Shown: positions 3,906 to 60,874 of the stretch, piece by piece
How the letters are laid out: each line of letters begins with the position of its first letter
Position numbering within the stretch: position 1 is the first letter of the stretch
Origin: Auricularia sp. M13
Taxonomy: Eukaryota > Basidiomycota > Agaricomycetes > Auriculariales > Auriculariaceae
Length of the DNA stretch: 64,000 bases
Assembly: GCA_037042915.1 (NCBI GenBank)
Contig: CM073193.1
Span: 5,766,001 to 5,830,000, forward strand
Direction of reading: 5' to 3'
The notes under the pieces: generated by a model
What the model was told of the DNA's origin: nothing
Database searches by the model: none
The model's input: only the letters and a program-made list of their open reading frames with translations
Position numbers and translations under genes: made by a program

Positions 3906-4517
3906 TCCGAATTGTGCATCGAGAAAATGGTACAAAATTTGAGAGTATTCAAGTTAGTAGTTAGTAATAGCGAAGGGGAGAACACTGGACGCTACATTGA
4001 GAACGGTCTGCACCAAAGCAGGGGCCAGAAATAAAGACGATTTCATGGCCAGCGACCCGAGCCCTGACCAGATGTGCCCGAATGCCGACGACAGCTCAGT
4101 ATGAAACAGATAGCGCAATGTGAGACAGCACTCACTGCGTATGAGAGAGCGCAGGATATGTCGAGACCACGAGCAGTGCCCGTGTGCTCCAGGATGGTTA
4201 GCACGGCCTAGATGATAAGTGAGGCTCAACACGTCAGTCAGATGCTCGCCTATTATTGCCCTCCGAGTCTTCGCAAGACACAGTCGTCGATGAGATAACG
4301 TACATTTCGACGAGTGACGGTTTGCCAAGCTAATTTGGAATTACAATGTAGCCTGCTGCTGCTTCAGCAACCGATAGAATGACTGGAAGCCATCTGAGAG
4401 CAGAACGGACATGCAGCCTTACCGGCTTTTAGCGCAAAAAGGAAGTGTATAACAAAGCATCGGGGGCCAAAAAATCGAGAACAGAATGTAGCAATTGTCA
4501 CATATGTGAAAAATAAT
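3906..4517. other. Intergenic region, nothing recognised
   Basis: This stretch lies between the leucine-rich relic and the 3' end of the first duplicated minus-strand gene. Only short shadow frames are present, and I see no RNA gene or repeat. Confidence 0.4.
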
Positions 4518-6087
4518 TTACCGTCCCGCGAACGGTCTCCGGAATACGAGACCCCAGAAGAAAGATCTGAGGCGCAATACGAGCGTCCCCAGGCTCGAGA
4601 GAATCCAGCGGAATGCTAACGCATCTGTCAGTTTCCTTCACTCAACGCTCGGCGGCAGAACACATAATTCACCAGAGAGCCCGTTGTTCCTTGCGTGCAT
4701 TCCTGAAAAAGCATCCGTTCCTTTGGTTGCCCGCGGAACTGGCAGAGAATTCAGGTCGAAGAACGGTCGCTGGGAACCGGACGTTACTCACCTACGGAGC
4801 TGCTGCTCGCAAGCGACATGCTCCGTGACGCAGTGCTGCCTGCAGAGCTCTGTGCATCGCTGCTAGCACATGGATTGATCGCAGGGGAGGCATGCCGGAT
4901 TGGGGATACAGCTCCAGCGCTGTCTGCGTCCTGATCGAACTCCCGAGACTCAACCGCAAACATTTCTTGCGCGACAGAATGAGCGGGATTATCCAGAGTG
5001 ACTGAATTATACGCACCGCGTTCCGCGCGATGTTCGATCGCGTCCTCGGGCGCAATAGAATCGTCGTCAACGACAGCGCTGGAACAATTTCACAACCTGA
5101 GCCTGAAAGCTCGAACTGTGCTCACCCGATGGCTTCGCCCGCATCCGGTGCGTCCGCGTTAGCCGCCGCTTCAAGCCAAGCAGTCGTTTGCGGTTTCTTG
5201 GATAGCAGAGCCGCAAACGTACGCTGCGCCCAGTCCCATTCAATGCTGAAGCAGTCAGTATAAATAATGTGACCAGAATGTTTGACGTACGCCAGAAGAC
5301 GCTGCTTTTCAGCGGCAAGATTCTCGGGACGATCTAAGATATCGAATGCCGTAATATCAACCCACAGATGAACATGATAGCCCATTTGCGGCCGCCCATC
5401 GTCAACGGGGAATTGATTTAGCATAGGGTCGTCGCAATCTTTGAGTACAAATTGCTGTCCCTCCGGAGTCCGAGGGTTGACATTGTCCAACTCGTCGTCG
5501 TCTGGGCGGATGTCTCCGACATGCCGAACGCCCCGTGACTCCGGGATTAGTTGACTGTCCTCTTGCCATAGCTCATTGATGTTGTCTTGTTGGTCCTCAG
5601 TGAAGCTGGGGCCTGTCGAGCGGTGCTGGTAGATGCGCGAGACGCGAGCGGCTAAGTGCTGCAGGGTGTGGAGATAACAATCTGACCAAGGTAATCCAGT
5701 TGATCCCTGTATAGGTTGTCGAATTAATTCTGGGTGGGGAGGCGTTGGCGCTATAGGGACAGCGGCTTTCGAGAATGGAGGACTGGGCAAACCACGACCG
5801 GCAAGCATGAATGACAGCGCCAATTGTACGCCGCCTTCTTCGTGCGAGTAGAGCATTGAAGAGGGCTAAAGAGCGATGTCAGTATGTACGAGGACACAAT
5901 GGCACCGACGGTTACGCACCGCGGTGACCAAGGCAAGATATTTGCCTGGCTGTATTTCCGCGGCTTCCCTCGTGGCCTGTTCGTCTTGCAAAGCTGCTAC
6001 GGAGACAACTGGATCCAAGGATATGACCACGAGAGTACCAAGCTCAACGGGCATGTCGAGGACGGTCGGCCAGTCCACGACGAGCAT
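4518..6087 (-). CDS. Module copy A, minus-strand gene: 423-residue protein of unknown function
   Basis: Seven exons with consistent phases: 6087-5920, 5865-5291, 5245-5126, 5078-5017, 4965-4792, 4738-4673 and 4624-4518, giving 423 residues. I chose ATG 6087 because the paralogue in copy B starts at the equivalent codon (MLVVDWP versus MLFVDWP). The N-terminal about 60 residues, a proline-rich linker, a block with VDITAFD, an EWDWAQRT segment and QTTAWLEAAANAD are shared with copy B. The last exon encodes a hydrophobic, arginine-punctuated segment (FRWILSSLGTLVLRLRSFFW) that could lie on or in a membrane. I recall similar uncharacterised proteins in mushrooms but no named domain. It shares a 304 bp promoter region with the divergent gene at 6392. 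Apparent stops in the raw frame fall inside introns conserved in both copies. Confidence 0.75.
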
Positions 6088-6391
6088 GATGGCAGGAGGA
6101 ACTTGGAAGGCGAGCTGGCGGACTTTGCCGGATGCGGCTTCGCTCCGACCTACCTCCGAGTGTGCGTAGCTAGGCAACCTTGTCTGAATCGTTGTACTCG
6201 ATGGAAACAACAACTCATCTCTTGTGTGCTGCGCATGGAGTCGCACCACAGCACAATGGGCGATGCTACCGGCGGACAAGCAGGTTCCATCTTTGTTCAT
6301 AGCTGTGTCTCAGTTATCTATAATATCTTGAGGCACGAACTGGGCGCTTCAGTTAATACGTGGACGGTCTCGTTTGCCGACGCTACTCGCA
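6088..6391. promoter_or_regulatory. Bidirectional promoter region of module copy A
   Basis: This is a 304 bp gap between the two divergent start codons. The equivalent gap in copy B is 407 bp. An AT-rich CTATAATATC lies near 6318. The head-to-head layout is kept in both copies, which suggests, but does not prove, shared regulation. Confidence 0.45.
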
Positions 6392-8276
6392 ATGGCCCAT
6401 TCTACTGTGTCCTCCACCGCGTCCTTCGTCCCTCATCCGGCCGCGCAGTTTGATGTGCCGGAGGAGGCTTGGCGAGGACAGATCTGGGCTGCCCAGGCTA
6501 GTGCTATCTTACCCATTCTCGAGGCTGCTGCAGCCTGCAGTGCTGTTGGTCTCTCTGCAGCTATGCAGACCGACAAGACCTGGCTAGAACAGAGCGGGGA
6601 CAACCTTCCAACCCGACCCTGTCTTATCATGGGGGTCGGGCGCACCAGTGGAATGATGCAAATCATGGCGTTGACTACTCTGGACAGCGGTGCTACTCAC
6701 ATCTCGGACATGAGCCCGCATTTCAAGCACTTTGCTATAGCTGTGGGCCGTACTGCTGCTTGGCCGACTCCGGAGTCTTGGGTGCTTCCCACCGAACCAC
6801 CCTGGCGCAAGGTCCCCCAGTTTTCAACCGCGTGTGCCATCGACATAAGATAGGCCCGGCCGGGGACCCTGGACATCACATGTTCTTTGACAATATAAAA
6901 AATGAATTAAATGCGTAATTTCAGCCGCAGTGAAGACCTAAATACAGAAAGTTTGCCGTCGGGGCATGGTCTCGTCGGGCCGCTATTAACTCGGCAAGAG
7001 GGGGTGCTTACACCTCTCCGTGTCATGGAACTCAAATCAGTCCCAAACTCAAAATTTCGGCCGCAGTGAAATCTTTACTTTAGCCCAATACAGCATTTGA
7101 GAGCCTCAGATACTCTATAAGTCAATTATTCCGGCTGCCAATAGATTCTCACGCTGCCGGGCCTCAGGCATCACGTGATGTTCCGGGTCCCCGGCCGGGC
7201 CTATCTTACCCTATTCCAGCCTCGTGCACAGATTTCGAACTGGTTCAGGAATCCCTTATAGCTGCACCGCGCGGACCATGGCTCGCCTCGAGCGAAAGAG
7301 CTTCGCCATGACTACGTCGTTCGCAGCGAAGCAGCCGGAAGAAATGGCCGAATGGAATAGGGTTCACGATGTGAGTTGATCTCGACTTACTCATTTCGAG
7401 AGCTGACACTGTGACACAGAATTCGATGAGAACGAAGCCTTCGAAGGGAAGCTCCCAGACTGGGAAGGGCTCATTTTGCATGTCGAGCAGGCAGCATCGA
7501 CCGCTGTCTGTACCGCAAGGTCTTATCTCTCCGAGTTTCCATGCTCATCATACTCTCTTCGCATCTGTATCCGGTCCGCATCCTCCTCTGGGACCTATAC
7601 CACCCGGCCTGTCATTCGCACCTCCGTTCATTAATCCACCGCCCGGTCCCTATCCACCTCCGGAGATCTTACATTCGCCGCCTCTGTGGCCAGAATTCCA
7701 TCATACCCACCACCAGTCTCATTTCTTCCACCCTGCGCAGCTGACGGTCGAATACCGCGCACATGCAGCGCCGCATATGCCACCTGCGGCATTATCGCAC
7801 GACTTCCGCCGTCTCTCGGAGCTTGCTTACCCTGATTCCGTCCCACCCTTATCTCATTCCCCGAATACGTCGCCGAGCGACTCGCCTGAGGTTGCGGAGA
7901 GCCAGATACCATGTGGCTCTGATAACTCGTCGGCCCCACAATACAGCACTCTCGCGTCACCAGCCCACCATGTTCAAGAGGAGGTGCCTGACGTGGTGCG
8001 TGTTTAGCTCTTGCCTTGGCGCAGTAGTCAATCAAGGTCTAGAACACCGAGAAAGACGACATAGACCCAGTTTTCCACAAGCTGAGGAAGTCGGGCAACA
8101 GCTCGTCAAGCCTGCTCTCAATCCAGCCGCCGGCTCCGCCCTGGAATGTCCAAGGTTCAATGTTCTATGGCACCGATCATTCTCAGCGTACGGGCGTTTG
8201 TCCTAGCTTCGAACGGGCCGCTAGAGACTTCAGCATGCGACCACGATTTTGTACCTCGCCTCGCACTGTCCTTTAG
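6392..8276 (+). pseudogene. Module copy A, plus-strand gene interrupted by a terminal-inverted-repeat element
   Basis: This is the paralogue of the intact gene at 10416. Exon 1 runs 6392-7370 but contains the inserted element 6848-7206 plus one duplicated TA. Exon 2 is 7420-7995 and exon 3 is 8043-8276. With the insertion left out, exon 1 is 618 nt, exactly the length of exon 1 in copy B, and the frame is open through to a 475-residue product. As it stands, the insertion puts a stop codon (TAG) three codons past the junction. The N-terminal half shares LPILEAAAACSAVGLSAAMQ-type sequence with copy B. The C-terminal half is rich in proline and histidine and probably disordered, and the end is conserved (MFYG ... 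SPRTV). The function is unknown. It could still be expressed if the element is spliced or has excised in some nuclei. Confidence 0.75.
6848..7206. mobile_element. 359 bp MITE-like element with TA target duplication
   Basis: The left end (AGATAGGCCCGGCCGGGGAC) and the right end are inverted copies over about 22 bp perfectly, with weaker similarity for another 12 bp (GGACATCACATG versus GGAACATCACGTG). TA flanks both sides (6846-6847 and 7207-7208), as expected for Tc1/mariner-type movement. The inside is AT-rich and non-coding, with an internal partial repeat (ATTTC[AG]GCCGCAGTGAA near 6921 and 7055). No transposase is present, so it is a non-autonomous element. It sits inside a coding exon. 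Confidence 0.85.
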
Positions 8277-8461
8277 GTATTTTTGTAGCATATTTATTTT
8301 GAGTCTGCACTATTTCTGTCCATTAGCGTCGGTCGCAAAGAATATTCACTTGCAGGCTGGGAAAGTGGAGCAAAAAGGAAATATATTGCAAAGCAGTAAA
8401 CAAAGGGAAAGCGAAAGCAATGTGTAGCGATGATTCATCGGGGTACATGAGACGGTCGTGA

Positions 8462-10008
8462 TTATGGTGATGCAAACGGTTTCCGCCAGAGGAGACTCCA
8501 GAAGAACGATCTGACGCGCGACAAGAGCGTCCCGAAGCTTGAGAGAATCCAGCGGAATACTAGCGCATCTGTCAGATTCCCTTCGCTCGGGAGAACACAT
8601 GGCTCACCGGAGAGCCCGCTGTTTTTTGCATGTGCATCCGCTCCGCTCGTAGCATGCGGCACTAACAACACAGCGTTCAGGTCGAAGAAGGCGCATTTGG
8701 GAGCCAAGGAAACTTACCCACGATGCTGCTGCTCGCGAGTGATGTGCTGCCTGATGTCGTGCTCGAAACCGAGATTTGCCGGTCATCGTCATTCGCGTGT
8801 AGATCGGCGACAACGGGGGCATCTCTGAGGGCAGGGGATACAGCTCTGGAACTGTGCGCGTCCATATCCAAGTCGCAGGACTCGATCTCCAACGATTCTG
8901 ACGCGAACAGAATAAGCGGTTGGTCCAACGCGCCTTTTCGGACGTACCACGCTCAGCACGGTGTTCGATGGCATCCTCGGGCGCGATAGAATCATCTTCG
9001 ATCTCCCTGGCACAGTTTCAGGGTACGAGTCACAGGATTTCAAATTTGCTGACTCGAGGCGTTCGTCCGCGTCTGGCACGTCCGCGTTAGCTGCTGCTTC
9101 AAGCCAGGCGGTCGTTTGCGGCTCCTTAGACATAATCATTGCAATAGTTCTTCGCGCCCAGTTCCATTCGATCCTGCGGTGTTCAGCACAAGTCAGGTGT
9201 CAAGACGCAGGACGCACGCACTCTCGCAGCCGTTGCTTTTCAATCTCGAGATTCTGGGGGTTATCGATGTCGTCGAATGCCGTAATATCCACCCATAGTT
9301 GCACATGATAAACCACTTGAGGGCGCCGGTCGTTGGACAGTAAAGCAGAGAAGAAAGGATCCTTCGGGCCGTCAGATTCGATGCATTCAAGTTGGTCGTC
9401 TGGTTCCATGATGACAGCATGGCCGTCTTCCTGCACCTCCATTTCACCCTGCTGGCCAGCGTGAATCTGGGCCAACATGTCGCGATCCTCTGCATATAAT
9501 TCACCCATATCGAGTTGTTGATCCTCCGTAAAACCAGGACCCGGTGTACGGTGCTGATAGACTCGCGAGACGCGAGCATGGATATGCTGCAGGGTATGAA
9601 CGTAGCAGTCAGCCCAGGGTAACGGAGCAGATGCTTGAACGGGTTGGCGATTGTTTTCGGGATGCGGTGGCGCTGGGGCGATGGGGATGGCAGCTATCGA
9701 GTGTGGAGGACTGGGTAAGCCGCGGCCGACAAGAACGAACTCGAACGCCAATTGCAGGCCGCCTACTTCGCGTGAGTAGACCATCGCGCCGGGCTAATTG
9801 TCATATAAGTATCTATAAGATGGCCTTGACGCTCACGCACCGCATCAACGAGAGCCAGATACCTTCCTGGTCGAATTTCTGCGGCTTCTCGGGTGGCCTG
9901 CTCATCTTGCAAGGCTGCGACAGAGTTGATAGGATCCAAGGATATGACCACAAGCCTGCCTAGCTCTGTGGGGTCGTCCAGGGCAGTTGGCCAATCCACA
10001 AACAGCAT
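8462..10008 (-). CDS. Module copy B, minus-strand gene: 419-residue protein of unknown function
   Basis: Seven exons in the same order and phases as copy A: 10008-9841, 9793-9222, 9173-9054, 9006-8948, 8897-8718, 8661-8608 and 8568-8462. The product is 419 residues. Exons 1, 3 and 7 have exactly the same length as in copy A (168, 120 and 107 nt), so the gene structure was duplicated whole. Shared blocks include LVVISLDP, AALQDEQATREAAEI, DITAFD, EWNWARRT and QTTAWLEAAANAD. The C-terminus is the hydrophobic segment FRWILSSFGTLLSRVRSFFW. No known domain is recognised. A TGA seen at 9200-9202 lies inside a 48 bp intron (GTGCGT...CGCAG), so the gene is not broken. The 3' end faces the 3' end of the copy A plus-strand gene across only 185 bp. 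Confidence 0.78.
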
Positions 10009-10415
10009 GTTGCCGGAGAAAGGCGTGTGAGCGGACTTGAAAGGCGCGAACAAGCCACCGGAATTCCGCCGGAGGAAACCCGGCATCCAGATGGGCCCAC
10101 TAGCTCCGAATCTACCTATCTACCTACCTACGGGGCCCGGGTGCCTTGTATTCAGGTTGTATAAAACAAAAAAACCGCCTTCGTACATCTGTTGCGCGCG
10201 CACCGCACGGTCTCGACCCACAAGTTACAATGGTCGAAGCTGCTGGCGGACCGTTTACCGTGGGTCGTTATGTGATGTCGCCTTGTTGCACCCCGTCCGA
10301 AGGGACGGCAGTTTGAAACGGTAGCTGTAGCGTTGCACATGTCTAGTTCTCGACATACATACAAACGGCTCACTCCTCCACCGCATCGACTACATACCTT
10401 CACCCGCTCAGTCCA
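10009..10415. promoter_or_regulatory. Bidirectional promoter region of module copy B, with a TATA box
   Basis: This is a 407 bp gap between divergent start codons. TATAAAA lies at 10160-10166 in plus orientation, about 250 bp before the plus-strand ATG. A short CTATCTACCTACC run is near 10111. It corresponds in position to the 304 bp gap of copy A. Confidence 0.45.
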
Positions 10416-12031
10416 ATGGCCCACTCAACTGCATCCTCAATCACTTCCTTCCTTCGTCAGCCGCAGCTAGACCTGCCAGAGCAGGCCCGGCGCGGAGAGA
10501 TCTGGGTTGCTCGTGCGAGCGCCATATTGCCCGTCCTCGAGGCTGCTGCTGCTTGCAGCGTGGTCGGTCTCTCTGCTGCCATGCAGTCAGATAAGAACAG
10601 GCTCGAGCAAAACAACGGCACTCTTCCTAATCGTCCTTGCCTTATCCTGCAGAATGATCCCGTTGGCGGGTTTGTACAGGCTGTAGTATTCACGACTCTT
10701 CATCACGGTGATACTCACGTCTCCGAAATGAGCCGCCATTTCCAGCATTTTGCCTTGGCTGTTGGCAACACTGATGCCTGGCCGACTCCTGATGATTGGG
10801 TGCTCCAGACCGAACCGCGCTGGCGTACCAACCCCCAGTATGCAGTTGCTTACGTGCAAAAGCTAGATTACTCCTGCCTCAGGAGTAAATATAGGATTAG
10901 CCCTAAATCAGGGCTCAGCTATAGGTGCACAGAGCGGACGATGCGCAGACTGGAGCTCTTTTGCGGGCGAAAGGTGCACGAATATATAGCTAAGGAATCA
11001 GACGAGCTGTCCGAATGGAATGACTCCCACGAGGTTCGTCTCACGCGCAGCGCTGCGTGCAATACTGACAAAGTAATGCAGACTTCCAGTATTGCTAGGG
11101 CCGCGAGGGAACAACTTCTTGAGGAGCAAGTCAGCTCATCGAACGCGCTCGGCCTAGGTGCCGTGATCCTCCCCCCTCGTTCTGAGCCGATATTTCCAGT
11201 CAATAACTCTCCTTCTCATTCCTTCGATGCTTTTGGCCCTCGTACAAGTTTTCCCCCACCTGCTAGCCTCCAAGGACCTACCTATTGGCCCGAGGTTCCG
11301 GCACATCTACGTCATTCGATGGATCCGACAGCTCACCCATATCCTCCTCCCCCGATGGTCTATCCAGTGCCGTATACATTTGTGGGTCATTATCATTCCC
11401 ACTCTGTGCACAGCTTCTCTGCCCCTGCTCCGCCTATGCCAATGATTGCTGAGAGCTCTGGTGAAATGGTTCTGGATGACGCGCCTGCGGCTCCCTCTCA
11501 CGTACGGAATGAATTATTCGCGTGTCCTTTCTCCCATCCTGTGCCCCCCTCGTCTGAAATCCCGGATGTGTATTCGGGAGAATTGTCTCAGCTACGGTAT
11601 CCGATAGATCAGACACCGCCAAGCACCAATCCTTTGTTGTCCCGCACTCAGTTCAACGCCTCTAGGTTCCAGCCGTGGAACCAAGGCTCATTCATTCAAG
11701 AGAACCATCCGGGCTACGGAGGCTGCAACATGGTACGTGGTCCAGAAGCCGCCTCAAGGCACTGCTCATTCGAATTTAGGACATTGAAGGACAGGAGCCT
11801 GAAATGCCAGCCCAGCCGATGGCTGAGGGTGTCGGGCAAAACCATGGCGGACTTACACCTACAAGCTCAGCTGCCCACGCTGCCCGGAGATTCGTACGTG
11901 GCGCGATGTTCTATGGCAGCAATCCTGCAGTGCGAGGGGATATCGGTCCTAACTTTCAGCGTCCCACCATGTCCGTGGGGCCCTTCCGTCCCGGTCCAGT
12001 GTTATTTACACAACCCCGCACAGTCTTTTAG
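10416..12031 (+). CDS. Module copy B, plus-strand gene: 506-residue protein of unknown function
   Basis: Three exons: 10416-11033, 11082-11732 and 11780-12031, giving 506 residues. The raw frame is also open across both introns, but these introns have good GT-AG ends and match the positions of introns in copy A. Residues 1 to about 200 form a folded-looking part (RRGEIWVARASAILPVLEAA; NRPCLIL; HVSEMSRHFQHFALAVGN). After that comes a long proline-, serine- and histidine-rich region and a short conserved end. I recall mushroom proteins with the RPCLIL...HFALAV pattern, all uncharacterised. No signal peptide, membrane segment or catalytic motif is evident. It diverges from the gene ending at 8462, and the pairing is preserved in copy A, so a joint role is plausible. 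Confidence 0.72.
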
Positions 12032-12104: not shown

Positions 12105-12580
12105 AACAAGCAGTAGGTACTTAGTCTAGCGACGACGAGGGCGCGGCTTCCCTTTGGCTTCTTGGGCGCCTTGGTCACTTTCTTGGGCTTCGTCTTGGGC
12201 GTCACCTTCCTCTTGGGCTTAGCCTTGCCAGGAGCGCACACGAGCGGTTCTATAGAACATGTCAGAATGGATTTCCCTGAGGAGAACAACATACCGGCGG
12301 GCGTGGGACGACCTTCTTCGGCGTGACGGGTTTCGGTTTGATTTTCGCAGTGGGCGTGCGCGGTGTCTTCGGCGGCGGCGGCTTGGTCTTGGAACTCGTG
12401 CGCCAGGGACAGGGCAGGATGGCGCGGGAGGGGCGTGCGGGCCTGAACGCGCGGCACCGCGCGCTGCGGGTGTCGGTCGAGCTGCTGAACGGTGTTCTAG
12501 AGATGATAGATAGAAATCCGAGCGCAGTTTGCGATGTGCATTCCCCGCAGGTGCGCCATGCGCACCAGGAGGTCTGGGTG
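12105..12580 (-). pseudogene. Decayed 3' fragment related to the basic secreted protein at 16690
   Basis: Read on the minus strand, this segment matches the last two exons of the gene at 16690-18339. It shows SKTKPPPPKTPRTP and KPKPVTPKKVVPRPP, a conserved intron (donor GTATGTTG, acceptor CTATAG, about 12248-12292), and then AAGGCTAAGCCCAAG-type lysine-proline repeats ending in RRR-stop. At least two small deletions break the frame, one just after the intron and one in the last repeat (GGA AGC instead of GGC AAG), and further shifts lie upstream. No homologue of the signal peptide or the central domain is present. It is best read as a partial duplication that has decayed. Confidence 0.65.
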
Positions 12581-16689: not shown

Positions 16690-18339
16690 ATGCGGTGGTC
16701 GGCGACGATCCCCGCGCTTTTGCTGGCGGCGGCCAGCGTGCAGGCTGTCCCGACGTTCGAGTCCGGCGTTGGGAGCGCGAATGTCGAGTTCTTCCAGGTG
16801 CGCCTCCCCTTGTGCGCTTGTGAGAAGATCCGATGGCTGATCTGCCTGTGCAGCCCGAGAAGCTGAGCGACCTGTCGGACTTTGACGAGTTCCTCGCGTC
16901 CCGCTCGTTGGGCAAGCGCGAGAAGGACTGCATCAACCTGCGCGACAATGTCAAGCCTAAGGACTGCCGGGCCGCGCTCTCCACCAACGGCTTCAGGGGC
17001 GCGTTCTTCTACGACGACAACAAGAACTCGTATGTCAAGAAGGACACCGTCCTCTCCCGCGATGCCGTCGTCGTAGAGATCACCGATGCCGAGGTATGAA
17101 ATTGTCGTTGCGATGCACAGGACCAGGAGCTGACGCTTGTTCTTCGTCCAGACGGCGGGCAAGGGCAAGTTCACGTGCGACCACATCCTCGAGCTCAACA
17201 TCCTCAAATCCATCGTCAACCTCGACGGCGGTATGTGCGACAAGGCAGCCGAGATGGAGGATCAGGTCGCTGCGAAAGCTAAGCTTGACAAGGTATGGGA
17301 CACAAAGATCCGTATGTGAGCTGCTCCTCAACGAGATGTAGGTCCGCAAGATTGTGAATCGGCCGCAGAACCTGGTCTTTTTCAAGTGAGTCTCGTAGCT
17401 GCGCAGCAAATAGAGAGGCCAATGCTGAATTTGCGCAGGTCATCGCTGGAGAACATCAAGACGAAGAACACGCAGCAGTTCCAGGGCGAGCCGGTGCTCT
17501 CGACGGGCTCGACGGACCTGACGTACCTCGTGATGTACAACTACCTCGAGAAGACGCTCAGCAAGACGATGCAGACGGCCAAGCTGCTCGACGACGCGAT
17601 CGCCGCCGAGTTCCCCGGCGCAGCGACCGGCGTCGAGAAGCTGTGGGGCGAGTACATCGCGTTCACCAAGCTCAAGGCCGCCAAGGCGCGCTCCGACGCG
17701 CAGAAGGACATCGACAAGAAGAAGAAGGACGCGGAGGAGAAGGCCAAGCAGGCCGCAGCGTGCGTTCTCCCTGGTTGCCTCTTGAGCCGCACTCGTCTGA
17801 CATTCCTCTCTCTGCAGTCGTAAGGCCGCCTGCGGCGCCCCGCCCGCGAAGCCGCCCAGCCGTCCCGGCTCGCCCGCGCCCGGCGGCGCAGGCAAGCGGC
17901 GCCGTGCTGCGCGCTCGGTGAACTACATCTCGTCGCTCGAGCGCCGCGCAGCCGCCCGCCGCCCCGCCGCGCGCGGCGCTGCCAAGTCTGGCCCCCACGC
18001 ACCCGCCGCGCCTTCGTGCCCGCTGCCAAACCAGCAGAAGAAGGTTGTCCCGCGCAAGAACATGAAGACCAAGCCGCCGCCAAAGAAGACGCCGCGCCCC
18101 GTCCAGAACAAGCCCAAGCCGCGTGCAGTCAAGCCCAAGAAGACTGTTCCGCGTCCTAAGGTAGGCCTTCTCATCTATGGGAAGGACATGACTCAGTTTC
18201 TTTTCCTCAGAACCGTCCGCGGCGCGCTCCTGGCAAGGCTAAGCCCAAGAAGCGGGTGACGCCAAAGAAGAAGCCCAAGAAGGTCCCCAAGCCGCCGAAG
18301 AAGCCCAAGGGCAAGCCGCGTCCCCGTCGCCGCAAGTAG
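16690..18339 (+). CDS. Secreted protein with an HNH-nuclease-like motif and a lysine/proline-rich tail
   Basis: The model has seven exons (16690-16797, 16854-17093, 17152-17292, 17342-17385, 17439-17759, 17818-18160, 18211-18339) and 441 residues. A signal peptide is clear (MRWSATIPALLLAAASVQA). The middle contains GKGKFTCDHILELN followed about 45 residues later by RPQNLVFFKSSLENIKTKN. The order DH...E...N/NL...N..K resembles the beta-beta-alpha metal fold of HNH nucleases, but this is inference from motif spacing. A coiled-coil-like lysine stretch follows, then from about residue 295 a strongly basic tail with repeated KPKK/PKPP units like histone H1 or nucleic-acid-binding tails. A broken copy of the tail lies at 12105-12580. 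Nuclease activity is unproven; a cell-wall or polyanion-binding protein is the alternative. Confidence 0.8.
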
Positions 18340-58773: not shown

Positions 58774-60874
58774 ATGAGCCACGCCTTTCCACAGCTGCCC
58801 ACCCCACCAGCAGATGGCTGGTCGAATTCAGTGCTCCGCGCATACGAGAAGCTTGCTAGTGGCCATCTCGCAATCACTCAGGCTCTCGCACAGGAGCAGG
58901 ACGATCCCGCTCGGTATCGAGCACTCAAGTCACGATTGGAGGAAGAATTTATCCCCCTGCTCCTTGCTTTCGAGGAGGCAGGGGCTGTTAGTCAGGAATG
59001 GCTCCAAGATGCGGCTCACGCTCTGGGCCGCTTGCTTCCCGAGCTCGCCGAAGCTGCCTCCATTGCGCAGACCCAGTGAGATTCATTTCTCTGGGTGGAT
59101 TGTTTTGCATTGTCTCACATTGTTGGGCAGAGAGAATGCGGAAATACACCATATCGATCCCACGAGTGAAGCGAGGACGGGTTCCCGCGGACGGCCGCGG
59201 AAAGACGTTGATGCAGGTTTTCTCGCCACAGTCTTCGATCCAAGCAGTGGGATATCAATTAGGAAGCTTGCTCCCATCCTTGGAATGCATCGCCATACGC
59301 TGGAGAAGGTCATGCGCCGTCACGGTATTCGGCGTGCATTCACCGACGTCTCCGATGATGAACTGGACGAAATCTTCCGCCTCTTCAAGCTTGAGAAGCC
59401 AGACAATGGTCTGCACTCTTTCATTGGCTTTCTCCGTCGGAATAACCTCAGGGTACCTCGCTCGCGCATCAAGGCGGCCATGCGCCGCGTGGACCCCCTC
59501 GATGACCAGCTCCGCGCCTCAGTTCCCGAGGTTGAACGCGCATACAACGTTACACGACCTAATAAAGTTTGGCACATGGACGGCCACCACAAGTTAATTC
59601 GCTGGGGGTTTGTTATTCATGGGTTTGTGGATGGTTATTGTCGGACGGTGTGTGCAGCTGCTTCGATACCCAAGAGCCATACTCACGCTTTGCAGGTCGT
59701 TGCAATGAAAGCGCACACCAACAACAGAGCTTCCACTGTTCTTTCACTGTTCAAGAAGGCAGTAGAGCTGTTTGGCATACCATCTCGGGTGCGCGGCGAC
59801 CGTGGAGGGGAGAACATTCTCGTTGCGGTCTGGATGATATGCTATCGAGGAATAAATCGTGCTTCCTTCATGTGGGGCTCGTAAGTGACATGCATTCCAA
59901 TCTACATCATCTGGTGCTGAATATTTTGTGCAGTTCTACGCGGAATACGCGCATTGAGAGGCTGTGGCTCGAGGTTGGCAAGCACTTCGCTCGGCGATGG
60001 CGCGCCTTCTTCCAGCGGCTTGAGCACCTCCATGGGCTTAATCCCGACGATCCCCACCATCTATGGCTTCTGCACACCCTCTTTCTAGACGAAATAAATG
60101 CAGACTGTGACTCGTTCCAGGCAGACTGGAACTTACACCCTATCTCTGGTCCAAAGACCAATAATCGGTCACCGCGGGTCAGTCGAGCATGCTGGCAATG
60201 TTTATTTTAACCAAAAAGCACCTGCAGGACCTTCGTATTCTTGGTCAATTACAGCATGGTGTCTATGACGCAGATGACTGCCAGGGCATTGACCCGGCTC
60301 TCATCCGAAGGTACTATGGGGCAGATGAGCATCTCCCACCACGTCAGCAGGAGGTCCTTGACCTTGCAGATGACAGCGATAGGGAAGGTGAGTCTTGATT
60401 CAACCAACATGGTACCCATTCTTTGTCTCACCTGCCGTGGCAGCTGAGGACAGCGACAACGAGGACGATGAAGACCTTGTCGCTCTCGAAGGTGCTATCG
60501 ACCAGGCTGGCCTCGATTTGGCCGACCTAGAGCAGCAAGTTTTGAGCGACCAGGAGCCGAATATTCGCCATGACGCCATAGAGCCTCCTAAAGCCCAGTG
60601 TCCCTTCACCGACAGCGGGCTGATCGAATTCGCGCGCCAACTTGCCGCGGCAGTAAAGGCAGACTATACTCCTGACAACGCCATGCTCTGGGGCCATGAG
60701 CATGAATCGGGTTCTTATCCACTGACTGAACCGTTAGTCATTGGACGTCTTCGCCGCGCTGTACAGATGGAATTACCGTATGAGATCTGGCTCCCACGCG
60801 CTCTCCGGTGGGTACAGGGCCTACATGTCATGTCCCTTATGTTAGAGCGTGGCAATTCAGACGATGAGACCTAA
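58774..60874 (+). CDS. Integrase core (rve/DDE) protein, transposon-derived
   Basis: Five exons (58774-59075, 59131-59880, 59934-60177, 60228-60387, 60444-60874) give 628 residues with consistent phases. The N-terminal 100 residues are helical. GRPRKDV and a helix-turn-helix-like segment (ISIRKLAPILGMHRHTLEKV) follow. The DDE triad appears complete: Asp in WHMDGHHK, Asp in RVRGDRGGEN and Glu in TRIERLWLEV. NRSPRDLRILGQLQHGVYD-type sequence and an acidic region close the protein. Similar multi-exon integrase-core proteins are abundant in Agaricomycetes, and whether they are active transposases or domesticated is unknown. The intact frame and clean introns argue for recent function. Confidence 0.85.

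Follow-up and report, generated by a model that had tools for sequence, protein, structure and literature searches.

Two tandem copies of a head-to-head unit of two genes, both in the same orientation, are located at positions 4518-12031 of the 64,000-nt stretch of Auricularia sp. M13 DNA analyzed here (the window). The genes, designated plus and minus according to the strand encoding them, form a divergent gene pair that is real, conserved, and present in multiple copies in this genome, and a joint function of both is supported. Plus probably encodes a diverged protein of PemK/MazF-like type. As an overall reading we tentatively favor a fungal multicopy module composed of a PemK/MazF-like plus protein and a dedicated minus partner. 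A preliminary description of the window had regarded both proteins as being of unknown function; this may need revision for plus, which looks PemK/MazF-like, and still applies to minus, which matches no known family.

Copies of the gene pair in the window and throughout the genome

The two units of the window, A and B, consist of repeat blocks with 71-83% identity at a start-to-start spacing of mostly 3.92-4.02 kb, confirming the tandem head-to-head duplication that had been described. The proteins encoded by A and B are 60% identical for plus (in the portion 5' of an insertion described below) and 55% identical for minus (in the aligned portion), with synonymous differences close to saturation. 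Both genes of a unit are separated by a short intergenic region, which measures 304 bp from ATG to ATG in copy A (6088-6391) and 407 bp in copy B (10009-10415).

The assembly to which the window belongs (52.1 Mb, 14 contigs) was searched with four plus proteins, and 21 plus genes were found. Eighteen of them have an adjoining, divergently oriented minus homologue; 17 of these pairs were recognized by automatic grouping at a distance of ≤1 kb and the eighteenth, at locus L040, by inspection. The plus gene of L040 is split into two parts (4281-4841 and 5791-6465) about 950 bp apart, possibly by another insertion. At L145 (C1:5288900-5291600; C1:5289.5k), plus and minus adjoin but are co-directional, an arrangement seen for none of the other plus genes; the divergent partner of the plus gene at C5:3361k is located 13 kb away, and no minus gene was found within the 3 kb read around the plus gene at C10:767.5k, the closest known one being 17.5 kb away. 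ATG-to-ATG distances in 17 pairs are about 180-650 bp, varying with the start codon chosen. The search for minus homologues yielded 61 exon matches corresponding to 39 groups, 19 of which have a plus gene within 3 kb; this count is rough, as one group comprises two genes, and the group at C1:5262k is paired only through a nearby plus fragment, which cancels with the group at C1:5267k, a real partner yet counted as unpaired.

Distances between plus proteins correlated with those between minus proteins (r = 0.90) across 18 pairs, which include the partial plus gene of copy A, the split gene of L040, and the co-directional pair L145, and omit C3:3883k; none of 10,000 permutations reached this value, the maximum being 0.50. 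Furthermore, six of the seven dN/dS values calculated were in the range of 0.06-0.43, and the remaining one, 0.68, came from a very young duplicate; purifying selection acts on the compared coding parts. Within this genome, the proposal that the pairing is conserved is strongly supported by the 18 divergent pairs and their co-divergence. A comparison of the promoters for shared motifs, which had also been suggested, revealed none: the best 8-mer (one mismatch allowed) occurred in 14 of 17 intergenic regions, as compared to 12-14 in eight shuffles.

On C5, duplicated blocks at 2.83-2.85 Mb and 3.32-3.42 Mb (L030-L032 and L042-L046) are about 77-100% identical and partly inverted, and carry several minus homologues without a plus partner. 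L032 (4231-4974) and L046 (3984-4999) contain a plus and a minus gene that duplicate the L030 pair but are separated by 13 kb; the plus gene of this separated copy has a start unlike that of the rest of the family. A transposon carrying both genes is not supported, as the C5 copies share long flanks in the manner of segmental duplications, with element ends not searched systematically.

Resemblance of the plus protein to PemK/MazF

The plus proteins share a conserved pattern, in which the motifs G-x-I-W, R-P-x-[IVL]-[IVL], T-T, and Y-A-x-A are followed by a helix at the end. This pattern resembles PemK/MazF (PF02452), in which the motifs GxIW, RPxxVL, TT, and Y(A/V)xA and a C-terminal helix follow one another in the same order. 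The arginine of the RP motif, equivalent to the catalytic Arg25 of MazF, is kept in all 19 plus members compared; threonine is found at the first of two neighboring columns in 13 of the 19 and at either of them in all 19, with the register relative to MazF Thr48 being uncertain. Arg25 and Thr48 are key catalytic residues of MazF, and a change of either one strongly lowers cleavage, as stated in an excerpt of PMC7354611. In contrast to PemK/MazF, the plus protein is fungal, encoded by an intron-bearing gene, and equipped with a long disordered tail, and its scores remain below the family cut-off. It also has an insertion of about 28 residues between strands 1 and 2; the distance from the glycine to the RP motif is 44-52 residues in 19/19 members as compared to 19 residues from glycine to arginine in E. 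coli MazF.

Profiles of the plus family were aligned using hhalign with a PemK/MazF profile of 32 proteins, namely, 15 selected plasmid proteins together with E. coli MazF and the proteins of 16 out of 80 MazF loci. The uncut profile of 15 plus members aligned over the whole domain and in the right order (P 8.9e-5, probability 60%), and a profile of 19 members gave P 1.8e-4 and a probability of 49%. Real scores were 31-33 for the uncut profiles; reversal of one side gave 11-13, and 150 column shuffles reached 18.5 at maximum. Omission of the strand 1-2 insertion by one rule resulted in P 6.6e-6, a probability of 85%, and a score of 37.7, exceeding 180/180 shuffles (maximum 32.6) and both reversals; the insertion was omitted because PemK was suspected, the omission favors the PemK alignment, and shuffled and reversed versions served as decoys in place of a collection of real families.

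The shortened sequences were also compared with databases. In Pfam, PemK_toxin was the commonest family, found for 7 of 19 members with a best E-value of 0.0014, which is under the cut-off; the next family was found for 2 of 19. The shortened profile gave six matches in the PDB (177,635 sequences), all of them MazF (about three different proteins; best E 0.07). When another loop was omitted instead, which was done for 10 of the 19 members, the sole PDB match was again MazF (E 1.6), and Pfam PemK was found in 1 of the 10 (E 0.099). Among the PHROGs, a MazF-like growth inhibitor was matched by 2 of 19 shortened members (best E 0.089); other families were matched by one member each (best E 0.0065). 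Each of these E-values is weak when taken alone; the Pfam, PDB, and profile results agree, and plus is therefore probably PemK/MazF-like. The PemK/MazF-like fold is supported but not proven.

The minus protein and the possible function of the pair

The minus protein is composed of a conserved part of the first ~150 residues, a variable stretch of acidic character, a PQTTAW segment, and a PEDAIEHR-like segment, which is present in most minus members and weaker in distant ones. At the C-terminus, 10 of the ~28 minus genes at the examined loci encode the pattern R..FFW.LLWR[KR]PF at a distance of ≤3 residues from the stop codon, in agreement with the hydrophobic, arginine-punctuated end reported previously. 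The corresponding helix is amphipathic in copies A and B (hydrophobic moments 0.44 and 0.51), and this C-terminus, present in 10 of ~28 genes, is the one indication for the earlier suggestion that both proteins may act together at a membrane. Minus matched no Pfam family, and its profile gave no match in the PDB.

We propose that plus is a eukaryotic PemK/MazF-like protein, extended by an additional segment between strands 1 and 2 and by a disordered tail. The arginine with which MazF cuts RNA is kept, as is a threonine located at the catalytic position or adjacent to it, and the protein might act as an RNase-type effector. In some MazF proteins, the loop between strands 1 and 2 is long and influences antitoxin binding, according to an excerpt of PMC11394972; since the plus insertion is found at the same place, it may represent a rebuilt partner-binding loop. 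Minus would be a dedicated partner that binds plus and either restrains or localizes it. Likely elements for contact or membrane association are the PEDAIEHR segment and the amphipathic C-terminal helix of those minus proteins that have one. RNase activity, partner binding, restraint, and a role in recognition or defense are inferred only. A more specific version appears quite improbable, namely, that fungi of this group have an expanded, intron-bearing toxin-antitoxin-like system that has diversified into about twenty specific pairs, each combining a MazF-fold RNase having a rebuilt strand 1-2 loop with a dedicated inhibitor or tether encoded head to head with it, and that this system serves self/non-self recognition or defense against RNA elements.

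Alternatively, plus may have the MazF-like barrel and be a non-enzymatic module for binding of RNA or peptides, forming a nontoxic heteromeric complex with minus that perhaps consists of two related barrels. The same fold evidence from Pfam, the PDB, and the profile alignment fits this explanation, as do the purifying selection with no sign of diversification and the first threonine column, which is occupied by A or G in 6 of 19 plus members. Moreover, the N-terminus of minus aligned with PemK in the same register with P 0.0085, as compared to 0.46 and 0.19 for the reversals, and plus and minus may thus be related barrels. However, the RP arginine is invariant (19/19), the minus profile is without a PDB match, and homology of plus and minus, although plausible by eye, is not supported: a reversed control scored equally, and no significant match resulted from searching the profiles directly. 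We regard a non-enzymatic role as rather doubtful.

Several results weigh against a PemK/MazF-like module. The uncut plus family, including four further members, gave neither a PDB match nor a Pfam PemK match at E-values up to 10; the Pfam PemK model found nothing genome-wide, and NCBIfam gave nothing PemK-like with the insertion kept or omitted. Individual E-values are marginal and do not attain the Pfam cut-off, with member 1 reaching 13.3 bits as compared to 23.1 required for PF02452. Without the correlation term of hhalign, the 15-member comparison fell to P 0.011 and a probability of 4%, and a narrow MazF set gave P 0.016 and 3%. AlphaFold models from two-row alignments were too poor for use (mean pLDDT 33 and 31, the former bearing on the SH3-like barrel and dimer expected of PemK/MazF), and Pfam found no MazE/AbrB-type domain in minus. 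Additionally, shuffling of 6-column blocks, which leaves the RP motif intact, gave a mean score of 21, and 4 of 150 such shuffles attained the score of the uncut profile; much of the signal apparently comes from the RPxxVL-TT hairpin. This, together with the missing matches of the uncut family and NCBIfam and with the strongest PDB and Pfam alignments, which extend mainly over the first 45 positions, would suit a plus protein of another fold that resembles MazF in this local hairpin only, the pair then being a fungal family of unknown function. We consider another fold unlikely, as the profile alignment is ordered from end to end and exceeds 180/180 shuffles once the insertion is omitted, and as all PDB matches (6/6 and 1/1) are MazF.

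Two further points concern the partnership within the proposed module. The possibility raised previously that homologues of both genes are usually unlinked does not apply to plus (18/21 paired) and is half true for minus, as a plus gene is lacking within 3 kb of 20 of the 39 minus groups; furthermore, linkage alone would also give co-divergence. These two points, the segmental duplications forming the C5 blocks, and the lack of a common promoter motif would all fit pairs that spread passively by segmental duplication and possibly by mobile DNA, and share an inherited promoter with no need to work jointly, but this is very unlikely because old pairs on four contigs, with proteins at least 40-70% different, still adjoin divergently (18/21) and the compared coding parts are under purifying selection.

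The favored module of a PemK/MazF-like protein and its partner was compared with known systems. Type II toxin-antitoxin modules also comprise a toxin gene with a neighboring partner gene; in contrast, plus and minus are divergent rather than arranged in an operon, and minus is without a MazE/AbrB-type domain recognizable by Pfam. The fungal cell-death clusters het-S/nwd2, HELLP/PNT1, and gasdermin/protease likewise consist of two neighboring genes, the products of which act jointly in known cases, as far as an excerpt of PMC12881547 describes them. They differ from the pair studied here, for which Pfam gives no gasdermin, HET, NLR, HeLo, or protease domain in plus or minus. Head-to-head gene pairs are also formed by the homeodomain genes HD1 and HD2 of basidiomycete mating-type loci, and plus and minus share this arrangement; a mating-type pair was rejected because neither protein has a homeodomain match in Pfam. 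Among the papers listed by full-text searches of an open-access library for MazF/PemK in fungi or eukaryotes, no title or abstract opening reports such a family. If the proposal is true, a fungus would use the fold of a bacterial RNA-cutting toxin in about twenty co-diverging pairs, the second member of which is of unknown type. A nameless family would then gain a testable biochemistry (RNA cleavage dependent on one arginine) and a testable partner relation, and the pairs would be a candidate recognition or defense system.

Gene structures in copies A and B and neighboring features

In copy B, the first exon of plus (10416-11033, plus strand; 618 nt) starts with the ATG at 10416, is followed by a splice donor after 11033, and encodes the PemK/MazF-like domain with the RP arginine as residue 73; the remainder (11034-12031) contains introns, modeled in part, and encodes the disordered proline-rich tail. 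No relative of plus B was found in a viral sequence collection. A first exon of 618 nt had been reported for both copies; this is correct for B, and in A the exon is interrupted at 6846-7208 by a 363-bp element resembling a miniature inverted-repeat transposable element (MITE). The element has 37-nt inverted-repeat arms that are 92% complementary and TA at both sides; six near-full copies occur in the genome on C1, C3, and C6, the five others being 81-94% identical to the window copy. The PemK/MazF-like domain of plus A, recognized by its family match, extends from 6392 to 6850 (plus strand), where it ends at a stop codon borne by the insertion, and the leftover of the domain, with introns and the proline-rich tail, follows at 7209-8276. 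The sole 360-nt GT-AG removal found in the insertion still leaves a stop; given this and the interrupted exon, plus A is probably a pseudogene or the source of a truncated protein. The preliminary description probably mistook the insertion for an intron.

Automated enumeration of splice models gave none, and three exons of the minus gene were then verified directly. These exons, measuring 168, 120, and 107 nt, are of equal length in A and B; GT follows the first two and AG precedes the last two, so that the coordinates and splice signals agree with the exon lengths described earlier. All minus coordinates refer to the minus strand. In copy A, exon 1 (5920-6087; 168 nt) has its ATG at 6087, a GT donor as in B, and a match to the family profile; exon 2 (5291-5865), also matching the profile, encodes the main conserved portion, with ends deduced from the preceding AG and following GT. 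The 120-nt exon with the PQTTAW segment (5126-5245) is defined by splice signals and its equal length in B, followed by the conserved PEDAIEHR segment (5015-5089; given as segment, exon ends approximate) and the last exon (4518-4624; 107 nt, AG before), which encodes the C-terminal aromatic/arginine helix. The corresponding parts of copy B are exon 1 (9841-10008; 168 nt, GT donor), exon 2 (9222-9793; profile match, ends deduced from AG and GT as in A), the 120-nt exon with its splice signals (9054-9173), the PEDAIEHR segment (8946-9017; exon ends again approximate), and the last exon with the C-terminal helix (8462-8568; 107 nt, AG before).

Elsewhere in the window, an inverted repeat of 73% identity is formed by positions 12126-12390 and 18065-18336, the first stretch of which looks lysine/proline-rich in translation. 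An open reading frame at 58778-59881 encodes an integrase core domain (rva_4, E 9.9e-35) and is probably part of a mobile element. Near the C10 pair, an inverted repeat of ~316 bp with 96% identity was found at L048 (7024-7339 and 7625-7935).

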